Assembly (NCBI RefSeq): GCF_003999195.1
Contig: NZ_RJVR01000189.1
Coordinates: 62,001-126,000 of the forward strand
Source: Streptomyces soli
Lineage (GTDB): Bacteria; Actinomycetota; Actinomycetes; Streptomycetales; Streptomycetaceae
DNA length: 64,000 nt
Direction: 5' to 3'
Shown here: in pieces, positions 10,527-59,665 of the stretch
Position numbering within the stretch: position 1 is the stretch's first letter
Layout: each line of letters starts with the position of its first letter
Notes under the pieces: model-generated
Seen by the model: only the letters and a program-made list of their open reading frames with translations
What the model was told of the DNA's origin: nothing
Database searches by the model: none
Made by a program: the position numbers and the translations under genes

Positions 10527-10676
10527 CCATCTTGTCAGAGTCGATTCTGACACCTACCGTCCGCCCCTCGGAATCCCCAGGACCCGGTTCTGTCCGCGCG
10601 TTAGTCTGGCCCGGTGCGGGCCCGATCAATTCGGACACGCAAAGCCGACAGCCGTCGCATCCCAGGGAGCACATTC

Positions 10677-44445: not shown

Positions 44446-46095
44446 TCACGAATCGGCGAGAAATGCGCGCCATCCGCCGTAGGTTGTGATGTCCATTGCC
44501 TTGCCGACCGCCTCCGGCTCGCACAGGAACCCGGGGGCCGTCGTGCCGTCCGCAAGCCCGACCCTGCCCAGCGCCATGGGGCGCGGCAGCGCGGCCAGTA
44601 GCGCGCCCAGCCCCTCGGTCGGCAGCTCCCAGACCTCGGCCTCGATGGCCGCGCCGCCGTCCGGGACCCGGACCAGGCCCGGCTTCGGCGGCTCCGTGTC
44701 GAGGGCGTACAGCCGGTACTCGGGCGCGGTACTGGTCGTGGCCACCAGCCGGGCCCCCAAGCCGAGCAGCTGGGGGTTGAGGGGCTGCCCCGACAGGTGG
44801 GCGCCGACGACCACGAGCTTCGCGGTCGGCTTGAGCAGCCGGGCGATGGCCGCCGTACGGTCGTCCGTGAAGCCACGGCCGAGCACCATCACCCCGAAGG
44901 GCAGCCCGTCCACCTCGCCGGCCGGGACGGCGATCCCGCACATGCCCAGCAGATTGGTGGAGTTGGTGAATCTGCCAAGGCGTGCGTTCGCGCCCAGCGG
45001 ATCGGCCGCCACCTCGGCCAGAGTGGGATGGCCGGGGGTCGTGGGCAGCAGCAGCGCATCCGCGTCACTCAGCTCCGCCATGGCCTGCGCACGCAGTGCG
45101 GCCAGTTTGTCCATGTCGGCGAACAGTCGGTGCGCCGGGAGGTCCCGGGCGGCCGTGATGATGCGGGCGACGGTGGGGTCGAGGGCCGGGTCGTCGGCAT
45201 GCTTGTCGATAAAGCCACCGACAGCGGTGTAGCGCTCCGCCACGAACGCGCCCTCATACAGCAGTTCAGCCGCCGCCGAGAACGCCGTGAGCTCAACACT
45301 GCGCAGCTCCGCGCCCGCCTCGGCGAGCCGCTGCGCGGCCGCTTCGAAAGCTTCCGCCCACCCCTTGTCCAGCTCACCGAGCTGATCCGTGGGCGGCACC
45401 GCGACCCGCCACGGCCCGGGCCGGCGGGCCGGCGGCTCCCCGGTCCGCCCTGCGGGCGAGGCGAGGAATCCGAAGGCGCGTTCCGCTTCCCGGATCGTAC
45501 GGGCGAACACCGTCACGCAGTCCACGCTCGCGCAGGCCGGCACAACCCCGGTCGGCGGGACCAGCCCGTACGTCGGCTTGATGCCGACGATTCCGTTGAA
45601 CGCCGCCGGCACGCGCCCCGAGCCCGCGGTGTCCGTCCCCAGCGCGATATCGGCGATCCCGAGCGCCACAGCAACGGCCGACCCACTGCTGCTGCCCCCG
45701 CTGACCCGCGCCGGGTCATACGCGTTGCGCACGGCGCCGTACGGGCTCCTGGTGCCGACCAGGCCCGTGGCGAACTGGTCCAGGTTCGTACTTCCCAGGA
45801 CGACGGCGCCCGCCTGCTTCAGCCGCGCCACGGCCGGGGCATCCCGCTCCGGCTCGTACGCGTACGAAGGGCACCCGGCGGTCGTGGGCAAGCCGGCGAT
45901 GTCGATGTTCCCCTTCACCGCAGCGGTCGTCCCGGCCAGCGGGAGGTGTTCCCCTGCGGCCAGGCGCGCGTCGATCGCGCGGGCCTCCGCCTCCACCTCG
46001 GCCTGCGGCCTGAGCCCGATCCAGATCTCGGGCCGGTCCACCTCGGCGATCTTCGTGTACGCGGCGCGTACGCGGCTGAGTGCAGGTCCGGTCAT
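44446..46095 (-). CDS. atzF: allophanate hydrolase
   Basis: 549-residue amidase that splits allophanate to ammonia and carbon dioxide. Amidase-signature triad elements are present: the lysine in TTAAVKGNIDIAG, the cis-serine in VSGGSSSGSAVAVALG and the nucleophile serine in GTDTAGSGRVPAAFNGIVGIKPTYG. The C-terminal domain (about 425-549) is complete, ending in GGWRAF. ATG at 46095 follows AAGGAGACG; an upstream in-frame ATG is weaker. It comes after the carboxylase gene on the same strand, but with an unusual 291-base gap that may hold its own promoter. Confidence 0.94.
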   Translation of the reverse strand: MTGPALSRVRAAYTKIAEVDRPEIWIGLRPQAEVEAEARAIDARLAAGEHLPLAGTTAAVKGNIDIAGLPTTAGCPSYAYEPERDAPAVARLKQAGAVVLGSTNLDQFATGLVGTRSPYGAVRNAYDPARVSGGSSSGSAVAVALGIADIALGTDTAGSGRVPAAFNGIVGIKPTYGLVPPTGVVPACASVDCVTVFARTIREAERAFGFLASPAGRTGEPPARRPGPWRVAVPPTDQLGELDKGWAEAFEAAAQRLAEAGAELRSVELTAFSAAAELLYEGAFVAERYTAVGGFIDKHADDPALDPTVARIITAARDLPAHRLFADMDKLAALRAQAMAELSDADALLLPTTPGHPTLAEVAADPLGANARLGRFTNSTNLLGMCGIAVPAGEVDGLPFGVMVLGRGFTDDRTAAIARLLKPTAKLVVVGAHLSGQPLNPQLLGLGARLVATTSTAPEYRLYALDTEPPKPGLVRVPDGGAAIEAEVWELPTEGLGALLAALPRPMALGRVGLADGTTAPGFLCEPEAVGKAMDITTYGGWRAFLADS

Positions 46096-46386
46096 CGCGT
46101 GCGTCTCCTTGTGGTGGTGGGGGCTGCCGGTCCGTGCCGGGACGAGGAGGTCAGGAACACCCACCGACCGGCAGCCGCCGTCGGCGCGGAGGGGGTGGGG
46201 CGGGGCGGGTCCGTAGAGACACTAAAGCGACGCAGAACGTCCGGTTCCGAGCTGGCGAGGAACAGAGTGGGCGACCACGCTGCTCCGGCCGCAAATCGAC
46301 TGCAGCGCCGTCTCATAGGACCCACCCCGACACGCCCCGACCCACCCACGAACCGAAGCCCCGCGCACCCCCACCCAGGGAGCCGC
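46096..46386. other. gap between carboxylase and allophanate hydrolase genes
   Basis: 291 bases with no credible gene. It is rich in GGGGT/CCCCAC repeats, for example GGGGTGGGGCGGGGCGGGTC (46194-46213) facing GACCCACCCCGACACGCCCC (46320-46339). Together they can form a long imperfect stem around a 106-base loop. No known riboswitch core was recognised. Confidence 0.4.
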
Positions 46387-49300
46387 TCACCCCGGCCCCA
46401 GCGTGAGCAACGCCGTACCGGCCGACACCTGATCGCCGGGGGCGACAAGAACCTCGGCGACGACGCCATCGGCGGGGGCCGAGACCGCGGACTCCATCTT
46501 CATGGCCTCAAGGGCGAGCAGCTTCTGCCCGGCCCGAACCCGCTCACCCGGACGCACAGCGACCTGCCAGACGCTGGCAGCGAATTCGGCCTCCACGGTG
46601 CACCCACCCTCCGGCACAGCGACGTCGGCCGTGGCCGGTGCGGGAGCAACAGCCGCCTCCGCACGGGCGAACTCGCCCGCCGCCTCCCACGCATCCCGCT
46701 CGGCCCCGAACGCGGCACCCTGACGGGCGCGAAACGCGGCAATCGAGTCCGCGTTCTCGGCAAGGAAACGCTGGTGCTCGGCGAGCGAGAACTCGCCGTC
46801 CTCGACCCGCAGGTGAAGCCGACCCGCAGCCATGTCGGCCCGCATATCGAGGAGTTCGTCGGCCTCGACGGGATACCACTTGATGCGGTCGAAGAACCGC
46901 AGCAGCCACGGCTGCCTGAGATGGGAGCCCGACCAGCTCGACCACACCTGGACCGTACGGCCCACGAACTGGTACCCCCCGGGCCCCTCCATCCCGTAAA
47001 CGCAGAGGTACGCACCCCCGATGCCCACCGAATTCTCGGCGGTCCACGTCCGCGCCGGGTTGTACTTCGTCGTGACGAGCCGGTGCCGGGGGTCGAGCGG
47101 CGTCGCAACCGGCGCGCCCAGGTACACGTCACCCAGCCCCAGCACCAGATACTCCGCGTCGAAGACCGTCCGGTAGACATCGTCCACGGACTCGAGGCCG
47201 TTGACACGGCGGATGAACTCGATGTTCCACGGGCACCATGGCGCGTCGTCCCGTACCCCCGCCATGTACCGGGCGATGGCCTCCCGCGTGGCCGGGTCGT
47301 CCCAGGACAGCGGCAGGTGCACCGTGCGGCTGGGCACGCGGAGCGCGTCCGTGGGGGGTAGCTGGGCCTCGGCCTCCTGGGCGAGGGCGAGGAGCTTGGC
47401 GGTCGGCAGGATGTCGGGGTCGACGTGGACCTGCAGGGACCGTATGCCGGGGGTGAGGTCGACGACGCCGGGGAGGGCGTCGGCAGTGAGGCGTTCGGCG
47501 AGGGCGTGCACCCGCATGCGCAGGGCGAGGTCGAGCTGCATGGGGCCGTACTCGATGAGCAGGTTGTCGTCGCCGCTGCGGCGGTACGTGACCGAGGGGC
47601 GGCCGTCGGTCTCGGGGAGGCGCCCGAGGACGCCGCCGTCCCGGAGAGCGGGCCGCGAGGCCACCGGCTGTACGGCGGGCGCGAGGCGGAGCGCCGCCGC
47701 CGCGTCCTCCGTCACGGGGACGAAGCGCACCGTGTCGCCGGGCCGGAACTGGCCGAGCTTCCAGCGCTGGCCGGTGACGATGGTGGCGGGGCAGACGAAG
47801 CCGCCGAGCGAGGGCCCGTCCGGCCCGAGCAGGACCGGCATGTCGCCGGTGTAGTCGACAGCGCCCACCGAATAGGGCGTGTCGTGGATGTTGGAGGGGT
47901 GAAGTCCCGCCTCGCCGCCGTCCGTTCGTGCCCAGCGCGGCTTGGGGCCGACCAGCCGCACCCCGGTCCGCGCCGAGTTGAAGTGGACCTTCCACTCGGC
48001 GGCGTAGAACTCCTGGATGTCCTCCTCGGTGAAGAACTCGGGCGCGGCGTGCGGCCCTTCGACCGCCCCGACCAGCCACTCGGCACCGAAAGAAGGCCGC
48101 CGGCCCTCGGGCACCGGCGTGCCCACCACCGTAGACCCGCCGTGCAGTACGTCACCCGCCCGCAGCGTCCGCCCGCCGTGGCCGCCGAAGCGCCCCAGCG
48201 TGAACGTGGCGGCGCTGCCGAGGAAGTCCGGCACGTCCAGGCCGCCGTCCGCGAAGAGGACGTACGTACGCAGGCCGTGCCCCCCGGGCGCCGGAACATC
48301 CAGCAACGCCCCCGCAGGGACGGTGAACGGCTCCCACTGGGGGACCGGCACCCCGTCGACCGTGACGGCGGCGGGGGCGCCGGTGACGCAGACAGTGGTG
48401 GCCCGGGTGAACCGCAACTGCGGCCCCTGGAGGGTGCATTCGAGCCCGGGGGCGCCCTCGTCATTGCCCAGGGCCTCGTTGCCGAGGCGGAAGGACAGGT
48501 CGTCCATCGGGCCGCAGGGCGGCACGCCGACGTGCCAGAGGCCGGTGCGGCCGGGCCAGTCCTGGACGGTGGTGAGGGTGCCCGCGCGGACGACCTCGAT
48601 GCGCGGGGTGGGGTCGGTGATCCCGTCGAGGGAGGCGGTGGTGTGGCCGGCGGCCCGGAGCGCGGGCGAGGCGGCGGCCGCGCGCAGCAGGCCGAGGTTG
48701 GTCTCGATGCCGTCGACGCGGGTCTCGGCGAGGGCCCGGGCCAGCCGGTCGAGGGCGTCGGCGCGGTCGGTGCCGTGCGCGATGATCTTGGCCAGCATCG
48801 GGTCGTACGAGGTCGTCACCTCGGTGCCCGTCTCGATCCAGGCGTCGACCCGCACGCCCTCGCCCTCCGGGAAGCGCACCCGCGTCAGCAGCCCCGCGCT
48901 CGGCCGGTGGCCCCGGCTGGGGTCCTCGGCGTAGACGCGGGCCTCGACGGCGTGACCGCGCGGGGCCTCCGGCGTGATGTCGAAGACCTCGCCGCGCGCG
49001 AGCCGCAGCATCCACTCCACCAGGTCTATGCCGTACGTCGCCTCGGTGACCGGATGCTCGACCTGCAGACGGGTGTTGACCTCCAGGAAGTACGCCTCGC
49101 CGCGCGCGGCGTCGTAGACGTACTCCACCGTGCCCGCCGACCGGTAGTCGACCGAGGCGCACAACGAGCGAGCGGTGTCAGCGAGTTGGCGGCGTACGGA
49201 GTCGGGGAGGCCGGGGGCGGGGGCTTCTTCCACCACCTTCTGGTTGCGGCGTTGCAGGGAGCAGTCGCGGTCGCCGAGGGTGACGACGCGGCCGTGGCCG

Positions 49301-49992
49301 TCGCCGAAGACCTGGACCTCGACATGGCGGGCGCGCTCCACCAGCCGTTCCAGGAACACCCTCCCTCCTTGCCCGCCCTCGGGCAGGAGGGGCCCAGCTC
49401 CGGAGAAGGACGCGGCGGCGACCCGTTGCACGCGGTCCCAGGACTCGGCGAGGTCGGCGGGGGAGTGGCAGGCCTGCATGCCGATGCCGCCGCCCCCGCC
49501 GGTGGCCTTGAGCATGACGGGGTAGCCGAGCGCGTCGGCTGCGGCGCGCGCCGCGTCCAGGCCGTCCAGCAGCCCGGTGCCGGGCAGCAGCGGCACCCCG
49601 GCGGCCTCGGCGGCGGCGCGGGCGGTGTGCTTGGCGCCGAAGAGCTCGAGCTGCTGCGGGGTCGGGCCGACGAAGACCAGGCCCTCGGCCTGGCAGCGGC
49701 GCGCGAAGTCCGCGTCCTCGGACAGGAATCCGTACCCCGGGTGGATCGCGCCGGCGCCCGTGCGGCGGGCGGCCTCCAGCACGGCGTCGACGTCCAGGTA
49801 GCTGGCCTTGGCCGGGGCGGGCCCGAGCCGTACGGCCTCGTCGGCGAGGCGGACATGGGGGGCGGAGCGGTCGGGGTCGGAGTAGACCGCGACGGTACGA
49901 AGGCCGAGGCGGCGGGCGGTGCGGATGATGCGGGCGGCGATCTCGCCGCGGTTGGCGACCAGGAGGGTGTCAAAGCCCGGCGTACGGCTCAT
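46387..49992 (-). CDS. biotin-dependent urea/guanidine carboxylase
   Basis: 1201-residue biotin enzyme with the full urea carboxylase plan: biotin carboxylase (about 8-450; VANRGEIAARIIRTARRLG, KATGGGGGIGMQ, EVNTRLQVEHPVTE), KipA/KipI-type carboxyltransferase domains (about 475-1080; TVQDWPGRTGLWHVGVPPCGPMD, HPSNIHDTPYSVGAVDYTGD) and a C-terminal biotinyl domain with LEAMKMES, K1165 being the biotinylated lysine. It carboxylates urea, or guanidine, to feed allophanate hydrolase. ATG at 49992 overlaps the DUF1989 gene stop by 4 bases. The DUF1989 pair points to guanidine as substrate. Confidence 0.94.
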   Translation of the reverse strand: MSRTPGFDTLLVANRGEIAARIIRTARRLGLRTVAVYSDPDRSAPHVRLADEAVRLGPAPAKASYLDVDAVLEAARRTGAGAIHPGYGFLSEDADFARRCQAEGLVFVGPTPQQLELFGAKHTARAAAEAAGVPLLPGTGLLDGLDAARAAADALGYPVMLKATGGGGGIGMQACHSPADLAESWDRVQRVAAASFSGAGPLLPEGGQGGRVFLERLVERARHVEVQVFGDGHGRVVTLGDRDCSLQRRNQKVVEEAPAPGLPDSVRRQLADTARSLCASVDYRSAGTVEYVYDAARGEAYFLEVNTRLQVEHPVTEATYGIDLVEWMLRLARGEVFDITPEAPRGHAVEARVYAEDPSRGHRPSAGLLTRVRFPEGEGVRVDAWIETGTEVTTSYDPMLAKIIAHGTDRADALDRLARALAETRVDGIETNLGLLRAAAASPALRAAGHTTASLDGITDPTPRIEVVRAGTLTTVQDWPGRTGLWHVGVPPCGPMDDLSFRLGNEALGNDEGAPGLECTLQGPQLRFTRATTVCVTGAPAAVTVDGVPVPQWEPFTVPAGALLDVPAPGGHGLRTYVLFADGGLDVPDFLGSAATFTLGRFGGHGGRTLRAGDVLHGGSTVVGTPVPEGRRPSFGAEWLVGAVEGPHAAPEFFTEEDIQEFYAAEWKVHFNSARTGVRLVGPKPRWARTDGGEAGLHPSNIHDTPYSVGAVDYTGDMPVLLGPDGPSLGGFVCPATIVTGQRWKLGQFRPGDTVRFVPVTEDAAAALRLAPAVQPVASRPALRDGGVLGRLPETDGRPSVTYRRSGDDNLLIEYGPMQLDLALRMRVHALAERLTADALPGVVDLTPGIRSLQVHVDPDILPTAKLLALAQEAEAQLPPTDALRVPSRTVHLPLSWDDPATREAIARYMAGVRDDAPWCPWNIEFIRRVNGLESVDDVYRTVFDAEYLVLGLGDVYLGAPVATPLDPRHRLVTTKYNPARTWTAENSVGIGGAYLCVYGMEGPGGYQFVGRTVQVWSSWSGSHLRQPWLLRFFDRIKWYPVEADELLDMRADMAAGRLHLRVEDGEFSLAEHQRFLAENADSIAAFRARQGAAFGAERDAWEAAGEFARAEAAVAPAPATADVAVPEGGCTVEAEFAASVWQVAVRPGERVRAGQKLLALEAMKMESAVSAPADGVVAEVLVAPGDQVSAGTALLTLGPG

Positions 49993-50597
49993 GCGGCGCC
50001 CTCGGTGATCGTCATGCGTACGGGGGTGGGGTCGAAGCCGTTGCAGGGGTTGTTGATCTGCGGGCAGTTGGAGACCAGGACGAGGACGTCGGTCTCGGCG
50101 CGCAGCACGACCTTCAGGCCGGGGGAGGAGATGCCGTCGACGATGCCGAGGGTGCCGTCCTCCTCGACGGGGACGTTCATGTACCAGTTGATGTTGCTGA
50201 CCAGGTCGCGCTTGCCGAGGCCGTGCTTGGCGCCCTCGGCGAGGAAGTTCTCCACGCAGGCGTGCTGGGACCAGGTGTGGTGGCCGTAGCGCAGAGTGTT
50301 GGATTCCTTGGAGCAGGCGCCGCCGACGGTGTCGTGGCGTCCGCAGGTGTCCTCGACGACGGTCATGAGCGGGGTGTGCTCGTTGGAGAGCAGCACGCTG
50401 CCGGTGGTCAGGAAGATGTTGCCCTGCGCGTGGATGGTGTCGGGCGCGCTGTAGCGGACGGCGGTGTCGTGGGCGTCGTACAGCAGGCAGTCCACGGCCT
50501 GGTTGCCGCCGAGGTCGGTGATGGCGAGGTGCTCACCCTTGCTGACGACCGCGGACCACGGCGCGCGGGCCGGAACGACGGTGCTGGTCACCTTCAT
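49989..50597 (-). CDS. DUF1989 protein, urea amidolyase-associated type 2 (carboxyguanidine deiminase subunit candidate)
   Basis: 202-residue DUF1989 family protein. Visible marks are KGEHLAITDLGGNQAVDCLLYDA, FLTTGSVLLSNEHTPLMTV, EDTCGRHDTVGGACS, NINWYMNVPVEEDG and VLVLVSNCPQINNPCNGFDPTP, with several conserved histidines and cysteines that may bind metal. Work on these DUF1989 pairs has reassigned them as the two subunits of carboxyguanidine deiminase, acting between guanidine carboxylase and allophanate hydrolase. ATG at 50597 overlaps the previous gene by 4 bases; its end overlaps the carboxylase by 4, so all three are coupled. Confidence 0.9.
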   Translation of the reverse strand: MKVTSTVVPARAPWSAVVSKGEHLAITDLGGNQAVDCLLYDAHDTAVRYSAPDTIHAQGNIFLTTGSVLLSNEHTPLMTVVEDTCGRHDTVGGACSKESNTLRYGHHTWSQHACVENFLAEGAKHGLGKRDLVSNINWYMNVPVEEDGTLGIVDGISSPGLKVVLRAETDVLVLVSNCPQINNPCNGFDPTPVRMTITEGAA

Positions 50598-51430
50598 TGG
50601 ATCCCCCTGGCGGCGAGGTGGTCGTCGGTGTTGAGAAAGGCGCGGCGGCCCTCGGGCGTGGCGTCCCAGAGCCGGTCGCCGGGCGCTGTGGGCGCGGCCC
50701 GCCAGGCCAGCACCTCCAGCGGCGTGCACACGTAGTCGGGGCGCGGGTCCACCGGGTGCGGGACGTTGGCGATCAGTACGGTCAGCGGCTGCTCGGCCCG
50801 CAGGGTCACCGACGCCCCCGGCCCGGCGGATCCGGTGAACTCGAGCTTGCCGTCGGCCACGACCCGTACGCCCTGGAAGAAAGACAGGGACGGTGGCAGA
50901 TCGCGTGGCTCCAGCCCGTTCTTCAGCGCGGCAAGTTTCAGCAGCTCGCGCCCGGCGGGGGAGGGGCCCTGCGGTGAACCGTCGCCGTAGCGCTGGGTGT
51001 TGCGTACGGCGGTGGAGGTGCCGCACAGCGCGTCGTGGCGGGAGCTGGTGTCGGCGACGACGGAGGCGAGGACGCGGCCCTGGTCGGACAGGAGCAGATG
51101 GCCTTCGCCGACGTACGCGTTCCAGAGGACCTTGACGGTGTCGGCGGCGTTGAGCCGCTCCCAGGGGCGGCCGTCCGCGTAGAGCAGCACGTGGGCGCAG
51201 GCGTCGCCGGCCAGGTCGGTGAGGCGCAGCTCGGTGCCGCGGGCGATGACTTTGTGCGTGTAGTTGCCGCCGGCCACGGTCTCGGCCCAGACGATGCGGT
51301 CCGGCGCGACGCCGGCCGGGGGGTTGGGCCAGGCGCCGGCGGGGAGAGTGGGCATGGTGTCGACCTGTGTGCCCTCCTGGGCGCGGGCATGGTCGCGGGC
51401 CCCGTATGTCGAGCCTGTCCCTGTCGCCAC
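50594..51430 (-). CDS. DUF1989 protein, urea amidolyase-associated type 1 (carboxyguanidine deiminase subunit candidate)
   Basis: 278-residue DUF1989 protein, first gene of the operon. It shows GGNYTHKVIARGTELRLTDLAGDACAHVLLY, RLNAADTVKVLWNAY, HLLLSDQGRVLASVVADTSSRHDALCGTS, FFQGVRVVADGKLEF and IANVPHPVDPRPDYVCTPLEVLAW. It pairs with the next gene, probably as a heteromeric deiminase. GTG at 51430 is preferred over GTG 51439 because GGAGG lies 8 bases upstream of it. A 22-bp palindrome sits 26 bases before this start, with the divergent TetR gene beyond. Confidence 0.88.
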   Translation of the reverse strand: MATGTGSTYGARDHARAQEGTQVDTMPTLPAGAWPNPPAGVAPDRIVWAETVAGGNYTHKVIARGTELRLTDLAGDACAHVLLYADGRPWERLNAADTVKVLWNAYVGEGHLLLSDQGRVLASVVADTSSRHDALCGTSTAVRNTQRYGDGSPQGPSPAGRELLKLAALKNGLEPRDLPPSLSFFQGVRVVADGKLEFTGSAGPGASVTLRAEQPLTVLIANVPHPVDPRPDYVCTPLEVLAWRAAPTAPGDRLWDATPEGRRAFLNTDDHLAARGIQ

Positions 51431-51456
51431 GGCTTCCACCTCCGGTTCGACGGTCT

Positions 51457-51478
51457 ATTTCTGTCGCACGACAGAAAT
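51457..51478. promoter_or_regulatory. TetR-type operator in front of the carboxylase operon
   Basis: Perfect palindrome: ATTTCTGTCG, two bases, CGACAGAAAT. It lies 26 bases before the first operon gene and 98 bases before the divergent TetR gene. The same palindrome with one changed base is found 28 bases before the APC permease gene at 59404-59425. Regulation by the adjacent TetR protein is inferred. Confidence 0.75.
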
Positions 51479-51576
51479 TAAGCGGGCGTGGCTTCGCCCC
51501 GATTGCCCGGCTGTTTCGGGGGAGTTACCGACCGCTCACGCCGGGACCGCCCGCGCGCGTGTGCGACGATCGTCCG

Positions 51577-52263
51577 GTGAGCACCTCGGGACGGCGCGTC
51601 GGACGGCCGCGCGCGCAGACGCGACCGGACAGCGGCCTGTCCGCCCGCGAGGAACTCCTCATGGCCGCCGCCGAACTCTTCACCGAGCGCGGATACGCCG
51701 CCACCACGACCCGCGCCGTCGCCGAGCGGGCCGGCATGCGCCAGGCTTCGATGTACCACTACTTCGGCGGCAAGGAGGATCTCCTCGCCGCTCTCCTCGA
51801 AGGCACCGTACGGCCCTCCCTCGACCTAGCCCTCGGCCTCGCCGCCCGCCACGAGGTCCCCGCTGAGGCCCGGCTCTGGGCCCTGTGCCGCGCCGACGCC
51901 GCCCTTCTGTGCGGCGGCCCCCACAACCTCGGCGCGCTCTATCTGCTGCCCGAGGTCCGGGCCGACCGCTTCGCCGCCTTCCGCGCCGTCCGCGAGGACC
52001 TCAAGACCGCCTACGCAGGGCTCCTCGCCGCCACCACCGCGGGGGCCGACCTCGCGCCCGCGGATCTCGCGCTGCGTGCCGACCTCGTCTTCGGCCTCAT
52101 CGAGAGCGTCATCCTCATCCGGCGCGCCTCCCCGGACCACGACCACGACCACGCCGCCTTCGCCTCCGCCACAGCCGACGCCGCACTGCGCGTCGCCGGC
52201 TGCGCCGAACACGTATTCCCCAAGCTCCGCCGCGAGGGCGAGGCCCTGCTGGCCTCGCCCTGA
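51577..52263 (+). CDS. TetR-family regulator of the guanidine/urea operon
   Basis: 228-residue TetR regulator. Its helix-turn-helix is AREELLMAAAELFTERGYAATTTRAVAERAGMRQASMYHYFGGKEDLLAALL (about 25-75); the ligand domain is variable, with a histidine/aspartate-rich PDHDHDHAAF segment near 197-206. GTG at 51577 begins shortly before the HTH. Divergent from the DUF1989/carboxylase operon; it probably binds the palindrome at 51457-51478 and the copy before the permease. The inducer may be guanidine or a carboxylated product. Confidence 0.9.
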   Translation: MSTSGRRVGRPRAQTRPDSGLSAREELLMAAAELFTERGYAATTTRAVAERAGMRQASMYHYFGGKEDLLAALLEGTVRPSLDLALGLAARHEVPAEARLWALCRADAALLCGGPHNLGALYLLPEVRADRFAAFRAVREDLKTAYAGLLAATTAGADLAPADLALRADLVFGLIESVILIRRASPDHDHDHAAFASATADAALRVAGCAEHVFPKLRREGEALLASP

Positions 52264-52392
52264 GCGGCGGCGAACTACTCCTCGTCCAGGCGGCCCGCCA
52301 GGCCGACCAGGTCCGGGAGCCGGAGCACACGCAGTTCAACGAGGTGATCGACCACATCACGTCGCAGTCGGGCTGACACGCCACCCCACACG
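52264..52392 (+). other. possible coding remnant after the TetR gene
   Basis: In frame +3 this stretch reads LSGGELLLVQAARQADQVRE and PEHTQFNEVIDHITSQSG before a stop at 52374-52376. It looks like a protein C terminus, but has no start codon of its own and no recognised family; the open frame upstream is the TetR gene out of frame. It may be a fragment left by rearrangement. Confidence 0.25.
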
Positions 52393-52422
52393 ACCGGACG
52401 GGCTCAGGCGAGCCCGTCCGGT
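52393..52422. terminator. hairpin after the TetR gene
   Basis: Perfect 13-bp stem ACCGGACGGGCTC (52393-52405) with its complement at 52410-52422 around AGGC. Probably terminates the TetR transcript from the left and any minus-strand transcript from the right. Confidence 0.75.
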
Positions 52423-52436
52423 GAATTGAGCCGCAC

Positions 52437-52580
52437 TCAGCCGGCCACGGCTTGCGCCGCCTGCTCGCGTCGGAGGCGGGCGATGGCCTCGTCGACCCCT
52501 TGGAGAGCGGTCTCGGTCTCGCAGCGGCGGGCCGCCAGGGCCGCCGCCGTGCGGGGCCCGGGGACGGAGGCGGTGTTCAT
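52437..52580 (-). pseudogene. short frame resembling a transposition accessory protein (DUF6262-like) start
   Basis: 47 codons reading MNTASVPGPRTAAALAARRC, then ETETALQGVDEAIARLRRE and AAQAVAG before TGA. The pattern of an alanine/arginine-rich helix with ETxxALxxxDxAIxxL resembles the beginning of the small accessory proteins that follow Tn554-type integrases, which normally go on for about 70 more residues. Its ATG overlaps the stop of an open frame from upstream (ATGA), whose acidic tail could be the C terminus of such an integrase. It looks like a remnant of a mobile element; the assignment is weak. Confidence 0.35.
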
Positions 52581-52914
52581 GCGGCGTCCTGTTCGGGGTC
52601 GTCACCGTCGGCTGTGCACGTATCGCTGTACTCGCCCTCCTGGTCGCTGCCCGCAGCGGCGGCGGGCACAGTCTTCCAGCGTGATCATGGGACGTAGACA
52701 CACATGATCGCTGGGACCGTGCCTGTTTCACACCTCCGCAGAGTGGGCCAGAGCCGCAGACCGGACGACCTCGCTCATAGCGACTTCATGCCGAAGCCCT
52801 CAAAGAGATACCAGGCGGCAGACATGGTGATCTTCGTCGCCGTGGACCTCGACTCAGATCGAAGCGGGAAAGGCGTCGCGTGAACGCATTGTTTCCGACA
52901 TCGGCCGCTGAGAC
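52581..52914. other. intergenic and decayed sequence before the transporter remnant
   Basis: 334 bases. The left part in minus orientation may be the last codons of a recombinase gene (acidic stretch ending EQDAA). The right part has no readable gene; a frame from 52789 reads MPKPSKRYQAADMVIFVAVD and stops. Base composition is more mixed than in the flanking core genes. Confidence 0.35.
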
Positions 52915-53583
52915 TTGCTCATGGGCGTGGCCTTCGGATTCTCGTTCGTCCTCATCCTGGTGTCCTCCATGTCCCTGATCACCGCAGATATGGCGGCGGG
53001 CCTCATCGCGATCTTGGAACGCCACATGACTCCGCTGCAGTATCTTCGATTCATGTGCCTGGGCTGGACCGGAAACATCGTCGGCGCATTCGTCTTCGTC
53101 GGTATCGCTGCCTGCGCCGGTGGCCCCTACACGTCGGTTCCGTTCCTCGCGCACGCCTACACGGTTGGTTTGGCCAAGAGCGGAACGTCGAATTTCTCGA
53201 CATTCCTGCTCGCGCTACTCTGCACCTGGTTCCTGCAGACCACCATGTTCATGTTCTTCAAAGCGCGGACTGACCTTGCCCGTATGTCATTCGCTTTCTA
53301 CGGTCCGTTCGCCTTCGTCATCGGCATGACGGAGCACGTCATCGCCAACGTGGGGTTCATCGGCTTCCCTCTACTGCTCCAGTTCGCCCACTCGTCCGGC
53401 GCCCTCCCGGGTGTCGCCACCAGCCTTTCCTGGGGCATGGGTGCCCACGGGCTGCTGCGCAACCTCCTCTGGGCGACGCTCGGCAACCTGGTCGGCGGCA
53501 CGGTTTTCGTGGCGGGTCCGTTCTGGCTGATCGCCGCCACGCGAAACCGGGGTACCGGCGTCGCCGCGACCCGCAGTGCCTGA
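52915..53583 (+). pseudogene. formate/nitrite transporter family protein, N-terminally truncated
   Basis: 222 residues matching the FNT channel family from the second membrane span onward: LMGVAFGFSFVLILVSSMSL, RFMCLGWTGNIVGAFVFVG, then MSFAFYGPFAFVIGMTEHVIANVGFIGFPLLLQ with the conserved central histidine, and NLLWATLGNLVGGTVFVAGPFWLIAA. Full-length members have about 270 residues; the first span and the N-terminal helix are missing, and a TGA lies directly before the TTG used as start. The product is probably non-functional, though the remaining frame is intact. A large palindrome follows the stop. Confidence 0.75.
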
Positions 53584-53630
53584 GCCGCTCAAGGCTGTGC
53601 GGCGTACCGCACCACGGTCGGGGTGGCCAA

Positions 53631-53690
53631 GGCCGGTCCGGGCGCCGGCCGGCCGGCCGACCGGTCGGCCGGCCGGCGCCCGGACCGGCC
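53631..53690. terminator. 60-base near-perfect palindrome after the transporter gene
   Basis: GGCCGGTCCGGGCGCCGGCC and following GGCC repeats pair with their complement ending at 53690. One arm carries one extra GGCC unit, so the stem is about 26 bp with a four-base slip. It lies 48 bases after the transporter stop. Strong enough to act as a terminator in both directions. Confidence 0.65.
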
Positions 53691-53895
53691 GACGAAATCG
53701 CCGCGAGTGTTTGTTTTCTCTGACATTCCGCTTGTGTGTCGCACATGTAAATCGGAAAGTCTGCGAATTTTTTTCGCAGATCCGCGTAACGGCAGGACAC
53801 GTGCCGAGAACTACCGCCGTGCTCATCCAATTCGGGAACGCGCCCCAGGCGCCGCCCGCGCCGACGTGCTCGTCGGCCACACGGAAGGACTCACC
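53691..53895. promoter_or_regulatory. promoter region of the OsmC/sigma-factor operon with A/T-rich hairpin
   Basis: An unusually A/T-rich stretch for this genome. TCTGCGAA (53760-53767), five T, TTCGCAGA (53773-53780) is a perfect inverted repeat about 115 bases before the OsmC start. ATG at 53896 has GAAGGA upstream. The repeat may be an operator or an early terminator. No ECF-type promoter could be assigned with confidence. Confidence 0.4.
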
Positions 53896-54432
53896 ATGTC
53901 TAACACCATCAACGCTCTCGCCGAGATCGACGCGGACGGCTTGGCGCGGCTGTCGGAGAACGCCAAGGCGGATCCTTCGGTGGGAAAGAAGACACTCAAG
54001 GCCACCACCACTTGCGAAGGCGGTTTCCGCAACCTCACCCAGATCCGCACGCTGACGCCGGTTCTCGTGTCGGAGCCCTGCCAACTTCTCGGTGACGACG
54101 CCGCACCCAACCCCTCTGAGATGGCACTGGCCGCACTCGGTTCCTGCATCTCCGTGGGGTTGCTCGCCAACGCGACGTCCCGAGGCGTCACGCTGAGCAA
54201 GATCGAGGTCGCTATGGAGGGCGACATCGACATCTCCGCGGTCTGGGGTGTCGGCGACACCCCAGAGAGCAAGGTGCCGGGGTTCACCGCCGTTCGCTGC
54301 GCCATCACGCTCGCGGGCGACGCCGACGCGGCCACGCTCCAGGAGGTCAAGGAGAACGCGATGGTGTGGTCTCCGGTGGTCAACACGTTCGCTCGCCCCG
54401 TCCAGATGAGTTCGACGCTCACCATCGGCTGA
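53896..54432 (+). CDS. OsmC family protein
   Basis: 178-residue OsmC/Ohr-like protein. It has KATTTCEGGFRNLTQIR, LVSEPCQLLGDDAAPNPSEMALAALGSCISVGLLANAT and the C-terminal strand region MVWSPVVNTFARPVQMSSTL. OsmC proteins reduce organic peroxides with two cysteines, or handle sulfane sulfur; candidate thiols are C77 (in EPCQ) and the cysteine in GSCI. ATG at 53896 has a good ribosome site. It begins a plus-strand run of coupled genes and is 43 bases from the truncated flavoprotein gene. Confidence 0.88.
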   Translation: MSNTINALAEIDADGLARLSENAKADPSVGKKTLKATTTCEGGFRNLTQIRTLTPVLVSEPCQLLGDDAAPNPSEMALAALGSCISVGLLANATSRGVTLSKIEVAMEGDIDISAVWGVGDTPESKVPGFTAVRCAITLAGDADAATLQEVKENAMVWSPVVNTFARPVQMSSTLTIG

Positions 54433-54475
54433 CTGGGGCACCCCGCGCCTTCCCTCAAGCCTCTCGGAACGGTGT

Positions 54476-55327
54476 ATGAGCTCGGCGTTCACCACCTGGG
54501 CCCACCGGATGACCATCGAGTACCTCACCGTCGCCGCCACCCGCTATTCGGAGAGCATGCTCGCTCAGCTGCGTTCCGGTCAGACACCCGGGATCACCGG
54601 GATGGCGTCGTCGTTCCGTGATCTCGCGGGCTGCGGCACGCTCGAGATCACCGCGACTGAAGACGGTGACGGCTACCTGCTGAACGGGCCGATCCGGTGG
54701 GCGTCCAACCTCTACGCCGACGCGTTGCTCGTCACCGGGGCGCGCACCGACAAGGGCGACAAGATCATTGTCGCGCTGCCCCTCGCCGCTGGCGGGATCA
54801 AGGTCGGTAAGTCCTTCTCCCTTCTGGCACTGGGCAGCACCGCCTCATTGTTTCTGTCCCTGACCAATGTCCGGATCGGCACCGAGCAGGTGCTGACGAG
54901 AGACTTCGACGCCTTCCTGACTTCGGTGCGGCCCACATTCATGGTGCTGCAGACGGCGATGTGCCTCGGGTTGGCCCGCACCTGTCTGGCCAACGCGCGG
55001 GCGTCCCTGGTTGGCGTCAACTCGGTGTTCACCACCGAGGTGGAATCGATGGTGGGCAAGATGGCGCTGGTCAACGTCGCGATGATGAAGGCGGCGCACA
55101 GTGTCGGGGGACTCGTCCCGGCGACCCGCGCGGAGCTGCTGGCCATGCGTCTGGCCGCTGCCGAGGTGGCCACCGGTGCGGCGACGCTCGAGGCGAAGAC
55201 TGCCGGAGGCAAGGGCTATGCCAGCAGCTCGGGTACGAGCCGTCGCTATCGCGAAGCCGCCTTCATCCCCGTGCAATCCCCCTCGGAGTCGCAGCTCCGC
55301 TGGGAGTTGGCCTCATGCGGGCAATGA
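54476..55327 (+). pseudogene. acyl-CoA dehydrogenase-like flavoprotein (SfnB/DszC type), N-terminally truncated
   Basis: 283 residues with the middle and C-terminal domains of the acyl-CoA dehydrogenase fold. There is a beta domain with LEITATEDGDGYLLNGPIRWASNLYADALLVTGAR and a C-terminal helical bundle, MVLQTAMCLGLARTCLANARASL and GGKGYASSSGTSRRYREAAFIPVQSPSESQLRWEL. Full-length members have about 380-400 residues; the N-terminal helical domain (about 100 residues) is absent, and the frame opens in the middle of RCMSSAFTTWAHRM. Such proteins with a flavin reductase act as FMNH2-dependent monooxygenases of organosulfur compounds. The reading frame is intact and its stop overlaps the sigma-factor gene, so it may still be translated. 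Confidence 0.7.
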
Positions 55328-55986
55328 TCGGTGAACCGGCCGAGATGAGTGCGGGGTCGTCGGACGACGCTGAACTTGCCGGGGACCGGCTGCTGCTCGC
55401 GGAGCAGATCGCGTCGCTGTATCCGGGCATGCTCCGCTTCGCCCGCACCATCGTGCCGGCTGCCCTCGCGGAGGACGTGGTACAGGAGACATGGATCGCC
55501 GTTCTCAAAGTGGCGAACACGTTCGAGGGCCGCTCGACTCTGCGTACCTGGATCTACGCGGTGCTGCGGAACAAGGCGCGTCAGGCGCTCGGAAGCGAGA
55601 CCCGACGCCGCACCGTCGAGACCGAGGAGGCGACGGACGAAGGCGGTCCGCTCGCCGGCCGCCTGCATCCGCCCGGTCATCCAGACGCGGGTCACTGGTC
55701 GGTGCCGCCGTCCGCTCGTTTCATACCCGAAGAGCGCGCGGTCACTGCGGAGCTTCGGCACAAGGTGCTCGAGGCGCTGGACAAACTGCCGCAGAGGCAG
55801 CGGAGCGTGGTGCTGCTGCGCGATGTGGAGGGTTTCAGTGCCGAGGAGGTGTGCGATCTCCTCGTCCTCGATCCGGGCAATCAGCGCATTCTGCTGCACC
55901 GCGGCCGAGCGAAGCTCCGCGCCTACATTGAGTGTTACCAGTTCGGGCGAGGATGCCCTGATAGTGAATCAGGGAGTTGGTTGTGA
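55315..55986 (+). CDS. ECF-family RNA polymerase sigma factor
   Basis: 223-residue extracytoplasmic-function sigma factor. Region 2 is SLYPGMLRFARTIVPAALAEDVVQETWIAVLKVANTFEGRSTLRTWIYAVLRNKARQ (about 40-97) and region 4 is VLEALDKLPQRQRSVVLLRDVEGFSAEEVCDLLVLDPGNQRILLHRGRAKLRAYIE. The linker is long and glycine/proline-rich. ATG at 55315 has GGGAG 8 bases upstream; ATG 55324 overlapping the previous stop (ATGA) is an alternative. Its stop overlaps the anti-sigma start (GTGA). It lies inside the run OsmC, flavoprotein, sigma, anti-sigma, flavin reductase and probably controls it. Confidence 0.92.
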   Translation: MRAMIGEPAEMSAGSSDDAELAGDRLLLAEQIASLYPGMLRFARTIVPAALAEDVVQETWIAVLKVANTFEGRSTLRTWIYAVLRNKARQALGSETRRRTVETEEATDEGGPLAGRLHPPGHPDAGHWSVPPSARFIPEERAVTAELRHKVLEALDKLPQRQRSVVLLRDVEGFSAEEVCDLLVLDPGNQRILLHRGRAKLRAYIECYQFGRGCPDSESGSWL

Positions 55987-56267
55987 AGATCGCTGACAAT
56001 TTCGACGCGGCCGGCGCTGCTGCTATCGACTGCATCGACTTCCTTCCCCTCGTCGACGACCTGCTCGAAATCGACGACGAGGGATGGGACGCGCAGGTCG
56101 TGCGCCATCTCGAGGAATGTCCACCGTGCCGGATCTTCCTTGAGCAGCTCCAAGACCTGCGACGGATGCTGCGCGCGCAGGACGACGAAGCGCTTGCCCT
56201 GTCCGACCCCCGTATCAGGACGCTACTGACCCAGGCCTGTTTCCCCCGAAAGGAAGATCCTTCGTGA
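55983..56267 (+). CDS. zinc-binding anti-sigma factor
   Basis: 94-residue protein with an acidic N terminus (CIDFLPLVDDLLEIDDEGWD) and the anti-sigma zinc motif VVRHLEECPPCRIFL (H-x3-C-x2-C, about 39-53), followed by a helix (EQLQDLRRMLRAQ). No membrane span, so a soluble ZAS-type anti-sigma that may respond to redox changes by losing zinc. GTG at 55983 is preferred to TTG 55977: GGGAG is 6-7 bases away and it overlaps the sigma stop. Its own stop overlaps the flavin reductase start. Translational coupling fixes the sigma:anti-sigma ratio. Confidence 0.88.
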   Translation: MKIADNFDAAGAAAIDCIDFLPLVDDLLEIDDEGWDAQVVRHLEECPPCRIFLEQLQDLRRMLRAQDDEALALSDPRIRTLLTQACFPRKEDPS

Positions 56268-56827
56268 ACAGCACCGTTGTCGCCGCGGCCGAGATTCTTG
56301 ACGACGCCCTCACCGGTGAGTGGACCCGCGGAGACCAGGTCGACCCGAACTCGCTGCGGAAAACAGCCGGTTCCTTTCCCAGCGGCGTGACCATCATCAC
56401 CACTACGTCGGGCGGCAATCCGATCGGGCTGACGATCAGTTCGTTTGCCTCGGTGTCACTCGATCCACCGTTGCTGCTGGCGTGCGTCGCGCGTACCGCC
56501 AGCAGTCTGCCCGCCTTCCGGGTCGGCGGACGGATGGGTGTCAACGTGCTCGCCAACGACCAGGCATGGCTGGCCAAGCGCTTCGCCAGCCGCCAGGAGG
56601 ATCGGTTCGCCGGCGTCGAGTTGCAGCCCGGCTCCCACGACGTCCCGCTGCTGGAGGGCGTCGCCGCGTGGCTGAACTGCCACATCGCGCGCATCTACGA
56701 CGGTGGCGACCACGTCATCCTCCTCGCGCGAGTGCACACCGTCCACCGCTCCGGCGCACGGCCATTGCTGTACCACTCGGGGAAGATGCACGACTGGGCG
56801 ATAGCGGCCTTGGAGACGACCACCTGA
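56264..56827 (+). CDS. flavin reductase-like protein (HpaC/two-component monooxygenase reductase type)
   Basis: 187-residue flavin reductase domain protein. SLRKTAGSFPSGVTIITTTSGGNPIGLTISSFASVSLDPPLLLACVARTASSLPAF is the flavin-binding core, and DDxxIARIYDGGDHVILLARV-type residues with RSGARPLLYHSGKMHDW complete the fold. It supplies reduced FMN or FAD to a partner oxygenase, most likely the acyl-CoA dehydrogenase-like protein encoded two genes upstream. GTG at 56264 follows GAAAGGAAG and overlaps the anti-sigma stop (GTGA). Last intact gene of the operon; a rhodanese fragment follows. Confidence 0.9.
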   Translation: MNSTVVAAAEILDDALTGEWTRGDQVDPNSLRKTAGSFPSGVTIITTTSGGNPIGLTISSFASVSLDPPLLLACVARTASSLPAFRVGGRMGVNVLANDQAWLAKRFASRQEDRFAGVELQPGSHDVPLLEGVAAWLNCHIARIYDGGDHVILLARVHTVHRSGARPLLYHSGKMHDWAIAALETTT

Positions 56828-56946
56828 TGGTGGACCTGAGTGTCATGCAGCCGGGCCGACGAGACGATGCTCCCCACCGCCACGTGCCCGTCCGTCTCCC
56901 GTGGACCGGCCGTCACGTTGCGACCTCGGTCGGGCTGAGCGCGTAG

Positions 56947-57230
56947 CGGAGCCCTGTCTTCGACCCGCAGATCACCGTTGACGAACTGACCGGTCCGCGA
57001 CTTCGCGACGCCCTCGCCCGCGGTGTACGCCTCCTCGACACGCGCGATCCGGAGACGTTCGCGGCCGGGCACCTGCGCGGAGCGGTCAACGTCGGTCTCG
57101 ACGGGCGTTTCGCGGAAACAGCGGGCATGGTGCTCCGGCACGGTGACCAGATCATCGTCATCACGACCGACGGGCGTGCGCGGGAATCCGCCCTGCGGCT
57201 GGCCCGGATCGGTATCGACACGGTACAGCG
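56947..57230 (+). pseudogene. rhodanese domain fragment
   Basis: The frame opened after TAG at 56944 reads FDPQITVDELTGPRLRDALA, then RGVRLLDTRDPETFAAGHLRGAVNVGLDGRF and IIVITTDGRARESALRLARIGIDTV. This is the rhodanese domain found after the beta-lactamase fold in persulfide dioxygenase-type proteins, in which the active-site cysteine is often replaced. No start codon with ribosome site and no N-terminal part, so it is a broken gene. It fits the sulfur theme of the flanking genes. Confidence 0.6.
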
Positions 57231-57445
57231 CAGTGGTTCCACTTCGCCGGCCCCGGCGTCATCCGCAAATACCTGGGCGGCAACCCAGGCTACTTCCCGG
57301 AACCGGCCGGAACCGCCGAAGGCCCCACCGGCCGGCAGATCCCCCGCCTTCCGCCGCAACGACCTCCAGGACTTCGACCGCAAGCGTACCGGCGACAACA
57401 CCGGCACCGCCGGACGACCCACCGGCCCCCAACACCGCGGTCTCG
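57231..57445 (+). other. unidentified coding-like fragment
   Basis: In frame +3 from 57231 the sequence reads QWFHFAGPGVIRKYLGGNPG, then YFPEPAGTAEGPTGRQIPRL with codon usage like real Streptomyces genes, and then dissolves. It has no start or stop of its own and joins the rhodanese fragment on one side and the integrase remnant on the other. Family not recognised. Confidence 0.3.
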
Positions 57446-57916
57446 ATGCACGTCGCAGAGTTCTCGCCCGTCGAGGTCAGGATCGAGGACCGGACCGACC
57501 CGCTCAACCCACACGTGCGAACTGCACGTCTGCTCTTCACGGACGATCACGGGCAACCCATGCGGCGGTCGACATGGTCACGCATCTGGGGGCGCATCCG
57601 TGCGGATGCCGACAAGCTTCTCGTGGCGAGGGGGACAGACGTGCGTGTCCCGAAGAAGTGAACGCTTCACAGTCTCCGGGACTTCTACGCCACGACGTTG
57701 ATCACGAGGCGGGAGAACGTGAAGTTGGTTCAGGTCCGCCTCGGGCACTCGGAGCCGTCGATCACTCTCGACAAGTACGTCGGGTTCTGGCCGACCGAGG
57801 AGGACACGACCGCGGCGGCTATCGAATCGGTTCTGGGAGAGCCGGAGCGAGTTCTTCAGCCGAGTGCACGCGTTGTGCACTCCGCCACCGGTATAGGGCC
57901 CCGGCGCCTATGGTGA
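57446..57916 (+). pseudogene. tyrosine-type integrase, C-terminal part with an in-frame stop
   Basis: The catalytic half of a phage/ICE-type tyrosine recombinase. It begins MHVAEFSPVEVRIEDRTDPL, continues LLFTDDHGQPMRRSTWSRIW, and after an in-frame TGA at 57659-57661 goes on in the same frame as TLHSLRDFYATTLITRRENV, VRLGHSEPSITLDKYVGFWP and EDTTAAAIESVLG. The H-x-x-R box, LGHS motif and catalytic tyrosine region are kept. The N-terminal half is missing. Its last 98 bases overlap the convergent permease gene. A remnant of the element that brought in the island. Confidence 0.75.
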
Positions 57917-59375
57917 CCAGGAGGAACAGCACAGTGAACCACTGGAAGTACCAGTGCCCGCCGGTCGGGTCGTAGACGGCGGCGCGGGGCCAGGCGAGGT
58001 TGACGGTCATGAGGAGGCCGTAGGCGAGGGCGAGGGCGTTGACGGGGATGCCCCAGCGGCCGAGGGAGAAGAGCGGGCGGCCGGATTCGTCGGTGCCGCC
58101 GGTGGGGAGTCCGCCGCGCAGGCGGCGCAGCAGCAGGGGGCCGGTGACCATGGCGTACGCCAGGTAGAGCATGGCGATGCAGGTGGTGCCGATGGCCAGG
58201 AAGGCGTCCGGGGAGAGGAAGTTGAGCAGGCAGATCGCGGCCGCGCCGCCGCCCACGACGAGGGCGGGACCGGCGGGCACGCCGGTGCGGGCGGAGACCT
58301 TCGAGAGCCCGGCGGAGAAGGGGAGGACGCCGTCGCGGGCCATGGAGAAGAGCATCCGGGAGCCGGCGGTCTGGATGGCCAGGGTGGCGACCGCGATGGC
58401 GATGGTCACGTCGACCAGCAGGGCCTTGCCGACCCCGTTGCCGAGGCTGCTGGTCAGGACGTAGCTCAGGCCCTCGGTCGCCAGCCGTCCGTCCGTGAGG
58501 CTGGGCGCGGCGAGCAGGCCGGCTAGCAGCAGCAGCCCGCCCAGTACGCCGGCCGCGGCGAGCGCGGTGAGGATGGTGCGGGGCGCGGTGCGCCGCGGGG
58601 CGTGGGTCTCCTCGCTCATCTCTCCGGCGCTGTCGAAGCCGATGAGGACGTACGCGGCCGTGAAGGAGCCCACGAGCAGCGCGCCGATCGCGCCGCCCTG
58701 GCCGCCGGTGTGGAGGGTGACGCCGGGGCCGTGCTCGACGTGCGTGAAGAGCAGCACGACGATGAGGGAGGCGCCGATGATCTCGGCGGTGACGCCGACC
58801 CGGTTGATCGCCGACATGATGCGGTTGTCGAGCATGTTCACGATGGTGGTCAGGACCAGCAGGATCACGCCCAGCAGCGCGGCGTTGGCGGCCCCGGTCG
58901 ACGTCGTGGGCGCCGGGTCGCCGCCGACGATCTGGAAGCCCGACCAGATTGCCGGGAGCACGACCTGCAAGGCCAGCGCCGCCGCCGCGACCACGACGAC
59001 CTGGCCGATGACCATGATCCAGCCGGCGAACCAGCCGAAGGCCGGCGTGCTGAGCCGTGTCGACCACTGGTAGATCGCGCCGGAGATCGGGTAGCGGGCG
59101 GCCAGTTCGGCGAAGCAGGCGGCCACCAGGAGCTGGCCGATGAGCACGGCGGGCCAGGTCCAGAAGAAGGCGCCGCCGCCGAAGGAGTAACCGAAGGCGA
59201 AGAACTGGAACACCGTCGTGAGCACCGAGATGAAGGAGAAGCCCGCGGCGAAGGAGGCGTAACGGCCCAGGCTGCGGTGCAGTTCCTGCCGGTACCCGAA
59301 CCCGGCGAGGGCAGCGGCATCCTCGGTGTCGCCGGCCGGACCGGGGGTCGCGTCGGGCGGGGCGGTGGCGGTCAT
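57819..59375 (-). CDS. APC-superfamily permease (amino acid/amine type), candidate guanidine or urea-compound importer
   Basis: 518-residue transporter with about 12 spans. It shows FGYRQELHRSLGRYASFAAGFSFISVLTTVFQFFAFGYSFGG (TM1 with the unwound GxxxG-type stretch), SGAIYQWSTRLSTPAFGWFAGWIMVIGQ, FDSAGEMSEETHAPRRTAPRTIL and SRMLFSMARDGVLPF, all typical of amino acid/choline-type APC permeases. ATG at 59375 has CAGGGG upstream. A palindrome nearly identical to the operator of the guanidine/urea carboxylase operon lies 28 bases before the start, so it is probably co-regulated by the TetR at 51.6 kb. Its 3' end overlaps the integrase remnant. Confidence 0.9.
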   Translation of the reverse strand: MTATAPPDATPGPAGDTEDAAALAGFGYRQELHRSLGRYASFAAGFSFISVLTTVFQFFAFGYSFGGGAFFWTWPAVLIGQLLVAACFAELAARYPISGAIYQWSTRLSTPAFGWFAGWIMVIGQVVVVAAAALALQVVLPAIWSGFQIVGGDPAPTTSTGAANAALLGVILLVLTTIVNMLDNRIMSAINRVGVTAEIIGASLIVVLLFTHVEHGPGVTLHTGGQGGAIGALLVGSFTAAYVLIGFDSAGEMSEETHAPRRTAPRTILTALAAAGVLGGLLLLAGLLAAPSLTDGRLATEGLSYVLTSSLGNGVGKALLVDVTIAIAVATLAIQTAGSRMLFSMARDGVLPFSAGLSKVSARTGVPAGPALVVGGGAAAICLLNFLSPDAFLAIGTTCIAMLYLAYAMVTGPLLLRRLRGGLPTGGTDESGRPLFSLGRWGIPVNALALAYGLLMTVNLAWPRAAVYDPTGGHWYFQWFTVLFLLVTIGAGALYRWRSAQRVHSAEELAPALPEPIR

Positions 59376-59403
59376 GTCGGACCCCTGTCGCTGGTTCCTG
59401 CTG

Positions 59404-59425
59404 ATTCCTGTCGGGCGACAGAAAT
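59404..59425. promoter_or_regulatory. TetR-type operator in front of the permease gene
   Basis: ATTCCTGTCG, two bases, CGACAGAAAT: the same 22-bp palindrome as at 51457-51478 except for one base in one arm and the central two. It lies 28 bases from the permease start, against 26 bases for the carboxylase operon. Confidence 0.75.
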
Positions 59426-59452
59426 TAGAGGCGTGGCGTTTCGGCCGCGTGA

Positions 59453-59665
59453 CGCATCCGTGTCGGCCAGGCTCCGAAGTCCTCACCGTGGCTCGGCCCG
59501 GTCGAGGCCCAGCTGCTGGAGACCGCGCTGGCCGAGTTCGCCGGCGTACGGGAAGCCGTTCTCGACGGTGTCCGGCTCAGCGCCCGCGCCGACGACGGGC
59601 CGGCGGCGGTCGCCGCGGTGTGGCTGTCGACCCGCACCTTCCGTACGTACCAGAAGTCGGTCTGA
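59453..59665 (+). pseudogene. 3' gene fragment of unknown family
   Basis: An open frame after TGA (59450-59452) reads SSPWLGPVEAQLLETALAEF, then AGVREAVLDGVRLSARADDG and VAAVWLSTRTFRTYQKSV before TGA at 59663-59665. Codon usage is gene-like, but there is no start codon with ribosome site, and the front lies on the permease operator. A hairpin follows at 59678. Family not recognised; taken as the tail of a lost gene. Confidence 0.3.

Follow-up and report, generated by a model that had tools for sequence, protein, structure and literature searches.

AmtR, a repressor of the TetR family and a known nitrogen regulator, was reported in 2013 to control an actinobacterial gene set whose enzyme was called a urea carboxylase (PMC4222082). 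In Mycobacterium smegmatis, GlnR and AmtR both bind before the permease gene of this set, an amtR mutant shows derepression, and nitrogen control of the set requires GlnR and persists without amtR; AmtR is not released by urea or amino acids, and the tested effectors that are named do not include guanidine (PMC4222082). Here we describe a stretch of 64,000 nucleotides from Streptomyces soli (contig NZ_RJVR01000189.1, positions 62,001 to 126,000; hereafter the window), which carries an amtR ortholog, a carboxylase operon of this kind and an APC permease gene. This known regulator and two promoters make up a genuine, conserved regulon at the locus, here connected with guanidine, and we consider it very probable that it is an AmtR-controlled guanidine regulon.

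Results

Paired operator palindromes and their conservation

The initial annotation had placed a 22-bp palindrome before the operon and a copy with one changed arm base before the permease gene, and both were found as described:

51457..51478, no strand: predicted AmtR operator 1, a perfect palindrome, kept in all same-genus carboxylase genomes
59404..59425, no strand: predicted AmtR operator 2, one arm change, conserved

Operator 1, ATTTCTGTCGCACGACAGAAAT (0 mismatches), lies 26 bp from the GTG of cgdA (51430), which is preceded by GGAGG, while operator 2, ATTCCTGTCGGGCGACAGAAAT (1 mismatch), lies 28 bp from the ATG of the permease gene (59375), both start codons being judged by eye. The published AmtR box, tttCTATN6AtAGat/aA (PMC2723105), is matched by TTTCTGTCGCACGACAGAAA with equal layout and spacing and with A to G in each core, as is the layout of the operator TTTCTGTCGnnCGACAGAAA; CTAT core forms were seen in relatives. 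At up to 3 mismatches the window contains just these two copies, and 100 dinucleotide shuffles of it gave 0 matches. Across the genome (9.4 Mb, 412 contigs) a pattern search, on which these counts rest, returned 4 sites at up to 3 mismatches against 0 for the reversed pattern, so that the hunt for further copies suggested by the initial annotation yielded two more genomic sites (C48:37841-37860 and C53:6962-6981). A relaxed AmtR box gave 1 weak extra match genome-wide versus 2 in the control, and a wider AmtR regulon was rejected.

Within the genus, both sites are present in all genomes with the carboxylase (17/17), and no site is present in 17 of the 18 genomes without it (co-occurrence 17/17 versus 1/18; Fisher p = 4e-9, kinship ignored). 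The single exception (G021) has kept amtR, cgdAB and both sites and has mostly lost the carboxylase and the permease. One genome (G012) has an orphan amtR without sites, located between genes like those flanking the window locus and resembling, by eye, a helY-type helicase and a siderophore-interacting-type protein. In a relative genus at the order level (g5), a single operon reads permease-cgdA-cgdB-carboxylase-allophanate hydrolase-amtR, with a related palindrome directly before the permease gene where the contig extends that far. Among 80 named loci spanning Streptomyces, Microbispora, Saccharothrix, Amycolatopsis, Glycomyces, Nocardia, Mycobacterium and Kineosporia, 51 contain the palindrome at up to 3 mismatches (0 for both control patterns) and 73 contain an AmtR-clade gene. 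Shuffles, reversed-pattern controls and conservation rule out chance palindromes, and the conserved pairing of sites in relatives supports the view that a shared operator ties the operon to the permease gene.

The regulator is an AmtR ortholog

The TetR gene that had been placed divergent from the operon is indeed there:

51577..52263, + strand: amtR ortholog (TetR family), divergent from the operon; PDB 5e57 at E = 5e-41, fold and tree

By sequence, its closest solved relatives are M. smegmatis AmtR (5e57, E = 5e-41) and the Corynebacterium glutamicum AmtR entries (1e-26 to 1e-29), separated by a wide gap from the next, non-AmtR, TetR structure (only 3e-12). The top 14 Foldseek matches of its AlphaFold model (mean predicted local distance difference test score 94) are all AmtR chains. 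A quick tree places the known AmtRs among AmtR-like proteins whose genes lie near guanidine operons and sets 8 other TetRs far off; many of its inner branches are weak, and C. glutamicum AmtR has a long branch. The base-contacting residues Thr42, Gln53, Ser55 and Tyr57 of C. glutamicum AmtR are matched by T45, Q56, S58 and Y60, whereas the position of its Tyr58 and His59 is not kept. A TetR of unknown kind is therefore rejected; the proposal of a regulon under a TetR stands as to gene and operators, but it missed that the protein is AmtR, that the palindrome is an AmtR box and that AmtR control of the set had already been published.

Among 102 guanidine-linked AmtRs, D107, N117, P125, F135, R139 and Y146 are invariant and Y122, E126 and E176 are conserved at 99%, while C. 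glutamicum AmtR differs at five of these positions (D107E, E126I, F135Y, Y146F, E176M). The acidic and aromatic residues among them would suit the needs of a guanidinium site and may line one pocket. Separately, genome G054 has a second AmtR-like gene (L046:3511-8907) with a near-perfect box, next to genes resembling by eye a dipeptide-type ABC transporter and a cysteine hydrolase, suggesting another AmtR-type regulon.

A guanidine-type carboxylase operon

The operon reads cgdA-cgdB-carboxylase-allophanate hydrolase:

50594..51430, - strand: cgdA (UAAP1, DUF1989), carboxyguanidine deiminase subunit; TIGR03425 306 bits, cut-off 206; start set from the ribosome-binding site
49989..50597, - strand: cgdB (UAAP2, DUF1989), carboxyguanidine deiminase subunit; TIGR03424 337 bits, cut-off 285
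46387..49992, - strand: biotin-dependent guanidine carboxylase (annotated as urea carboxylase), 1201 amino acids; TIGR02712 1809 bits, cut-off 1304
44446..46095, - strand: allophanate hydrolase (AtzF type), the last gene of the operon; TIGR02713 676 bits, cut-off 511; Pfam Amidase and AH_C

The adjacent DUF1989 pair thus exceeds the curated NCBIfam cut-offs of both UAAP1 and UAAP2. Guanidine and urea carboxylases are separated by the residue at Kluyveromyces lactis position 1330, where the urea enzymes have Asn (PMC11410670). In the alignment, the window enzyme has Asp713 at this position and the second required Asp, Asp955, at K. lactis position 1584, and Asp occupies the selectivity position in 102 of the 106 homologs resolved there. 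A urea-specific enzyme is rejected on Asp713, and the inference of guanidine use, first drawn from the DUF1989 pair beside a urea-carboxylase-like enzyme, gains support from this signature, which points to the guanidine carboxylase pathway. A urease is also present in the genome, so urea need not pass through this carboxylase. The carboxylase match covers just the carboxyltransferase part (about query 464-1118) at L101, L053 and the loci of Nocardia and Rhodococcus; neither a biotin carboxylase nor a biotin carrier part was found in that match.

The permease gene and the gap before it

57819..59375, - strand: APC permease, candidate guanidine importer; best NCBIfam match TIGR03428, Pfam AA_permease_2; homologs stand behind guanidine-I riboswitches
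52264..57818, no strand: 5.5-kb gap between amtR and the permease gene with unrelated genes, without counterparts in the related loci compared

By eye, the gap genes are transporter-like, OsmC-like, acyl-CoA-dehydrogenase-like, sigma/anti-sigma-like and flavin-reductase-like, and none of the gap open reading frames was found in the related loci compared, a content in line with an insertion. The claim that the genes were once adjacent and were split by an island finds partial support: in several relatives, amtR and the permease gene are close convergent neighbours, but the distance between them is freely variable across the group, and many Streptomyces likewise have about 8 kb between both sites, so the split says little on function.

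GlnR-like repeats beside both operators

51502..51539, + strand: GlnR-like repeats ATTGC-n6-GTTTC-n6-GTTAC-n6-CTCAC, at a fixed offset in Streptomyces-type loci, with GlnR box layout
59438..59486, + strand: GlnR-like repeats GTTTC-n6-GTGAC-n6-GTGTC followed by weaker repeats, kept in 16 aligned same-genus promoters

GlnR boxes consist of 5-mers with 6-base spacing (PMC10704036, PMC3087709). On the permease side, three clear 5-mers span 59438-59464 and weaker ones reach 59486; on the operon side, promoter alignments show the repeats at an unchanged offset in almost all Streptomyces-type loci. Layout and conservation agree with GTnAC-type 5-mers at this spacing, but only one 5-mer per site fits GTnAC exactly. 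The repeats may bind GlnR, and their position beside both operators suggests that the regulon is probably also GlnR-activated.

Guanidine-I riboswitches in relatives and in the genome

Four genomes (G035, G044, G045 and G047) have a guanidine-I riboswitch, that of G035 scoring below the gathering cut-off, before a permease 61-62% identical to that of the window, followed by cgd genes and a carboxyltransferase where the locus reaches that far. AmtR has no match in these genomes, and their riboswitch loci contain no AmtR box. These counterparts support guanidine as the theme of the operon. The riboswitch-led carboxyltransferases of L054, L060 and L061 have Met at the Asp/Asn position (GGIM), outside the published signature.

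No guanidine riboswitch family was detected within the window, where a Streptomyces-metH RNA (RF03076, 89 bits) occupies 10556-10679. The idea that a TetR replaces the guanidine riboswitch holds in so far as a riboswitch takes the regulatory place before the matching permease in these four relatives, but the genome retains one guanidine-I riboswitch elsewhere (C16:77552-77675, - strand; L055:3191-5176). Behind it, as also in G028 (L056:5104-7080), stands a lyase-like open reading frame that by eye looks like a member of the aromatic amino acid lyase family; such a gene is an uncommon target for a guanidine riboswitch.

Two further AmtR boxes

One of the two extra genomic boxes stands between an XRE-cupin gene and an amidohydrolase gene (L001), and the other precedes an operon of an NCS1 permease, a codA-deacetylase fusion and a ureohydrolase (L002:2013-6981; its counterpart with conserved box at L038:3211-8354). 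Both recur in G028, where the box is intact and the surrounding intergenic DNA is 68-77% identical; no AmtR box was found at NCS1 relatives in other genera (L145, L146). A role of the C53 ureohydrolase as guanidinase was not supported, its closest relatives being guanidinopropionase and guanidinobutyrase.

Discussion

We propose that binding of the AmtR ortholog to the palindrome directly before each start codon represses both the cgdA-cgdB-carboxylase-allophanate hydrolase unit and the APC permease gene, and that GlnR would activate both under nitrogen shortage. The permease would import guanidine, the carboxylase would turn it into carboxyguanidine, CgdAB would deiminate this to allophanate, and the allophanate hydrolase would yield ammonia and CO2, while AmtR would come off its operators in the presence of guanidine or of a product formed early in the pathway. 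That guanidine or such a product is the effector is a tentative suggestion. Equally tentatively, AmtR may have begun as a repressor of guanidine assimilation that senses guanidine, evolutionarily interchangeable with the guanidine-I riboswitch, the C. glutamicum form being derived and having lost ligand sensing.

Several observations weigh against an AmtR-controlled guanidine regulon. The AmtR of C. glutamicum answers to PII and to no small molecule. The permease scores 636 bits against TIGR03428 ("permease, urea carboxylase system"), below the cut-off of 740; this is its full-length best match and places it close to that family rather than in it. The carboxyltransferase of the riboswitch-led loci carries Met at the selectivity position in 3/3 read, so that these relatives are not strict orthologs, and the genome's own guanidine-I riboswitch, before the lyase-like gene, means that AmtR is not the sole possible guanidine control.

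AmtR might instead repress according to nitrogen status, with release through the PII protein GlnK, as happens in C. glutamicum, and without any sensing of guanidine, the guanidine genes being one scavenging set among others. The targets of the PII-released C. glutamicum AmtR include codA, a creatinine transporter and urea genes, 2 of the 4 sites found here adjoin other nitrogen-compound genes, and GlnK release would explain the extra codA and amidohydrolase boxes too. We nevertheless regard it as rather unlikely, as nitrogen control in M. smegmatis needs GlnR and survives the loss of amtR, PII is not the transcriptional signal there, GlnR-like repeats adjoin both operators, and residues invariant in guanidine-linked AmtRs are altered in the PII-responsive protein. 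Given the M. smegmatis data, GlnR is a plausible reader of nitrogen status, and AmtR would then have something else to read. This could be another small molecule that acts on both extra targets as well as on the guanidine operon, such as a urea- or purine-derived nitrogen compound, a guanidino acid or a late intermediate, e.g. allophanate. The NCS1 permease, codA-like deaminase, ureohydrolase and amidohydrolase encoded at the extra targets would fit such an effector; the failure of urea and amino acids to release M. smegmatis AmtR does not, and the extra targets occur in just two genomes of the genus versus the guanidine targets in all carboxylase genomes, which makes this quite improbable in our view. 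Use of the regulon for urea, with a true urea carboxylase, follows the NCBIfam names and the 2013 paper (PMC4222082), yet it appears very improbable in the face of Asp where urea enzymes carry Asn, the DUF1989 pair in the operon, the urease in the genome and the related operons behind guanidine-I riboswitches.

An AmtR-controlled guanidine regulon would correct, from urea to guanidine, how a regulon that occurs across actinobacteria is interpreted, and it bears on the AmtR effector outside Corynebacterium, urea and amino acids having failed in that role. The link is cheap and direct to test, AmtR being already crystallised (5e57), and a guanidine-sensing AmtR would be the first known guanidine-responsive transcription factor. 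We found no AmtR-guanidine link in the openly readable literature; an earlier test may exist in subscription papers, e.g. the 2016 M. smegmatis AmtR structure paper.

Of the known systems, the AmtR-urea carboxylase set of actinobacteria (M. smegmatis msmeg_2184-2189, S. avermitilis sav6697-6709; PMC4222082) has the same make-up as the window locus, with AmtR, an amino acid permease, two unknown frames (urf1 and urf2), carboxylase and amidase; in S. avermitilis, amtR is likewise divergent from the operon and the permease gene lies apart, and in M. smegmatis AmtR binds before the orthologous permease gene (PMC4222082). That set was given a urea reading and no effector was found, whereas the carboxylase described here bears the signature of guanidine enzymes, and the analysis adds the positions of both operators and two further boxes. 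The AmtR of C. glutamicum belongs to the same TetR subfamily and has the same box layout and a codA-type target, but it is a PII-released global regulator of about 35 genes in which several residues invariant here are changed. Finally, the carboxylase operons controlled by guanidine-I riboswitches have the same pathway genes and, in Catenulispora-order relatives and nitrifiers, a related APC permease; they rely on an RNA sensor, in contrast to the protein repressor of the window, where no guanidine riboswitch was detected.

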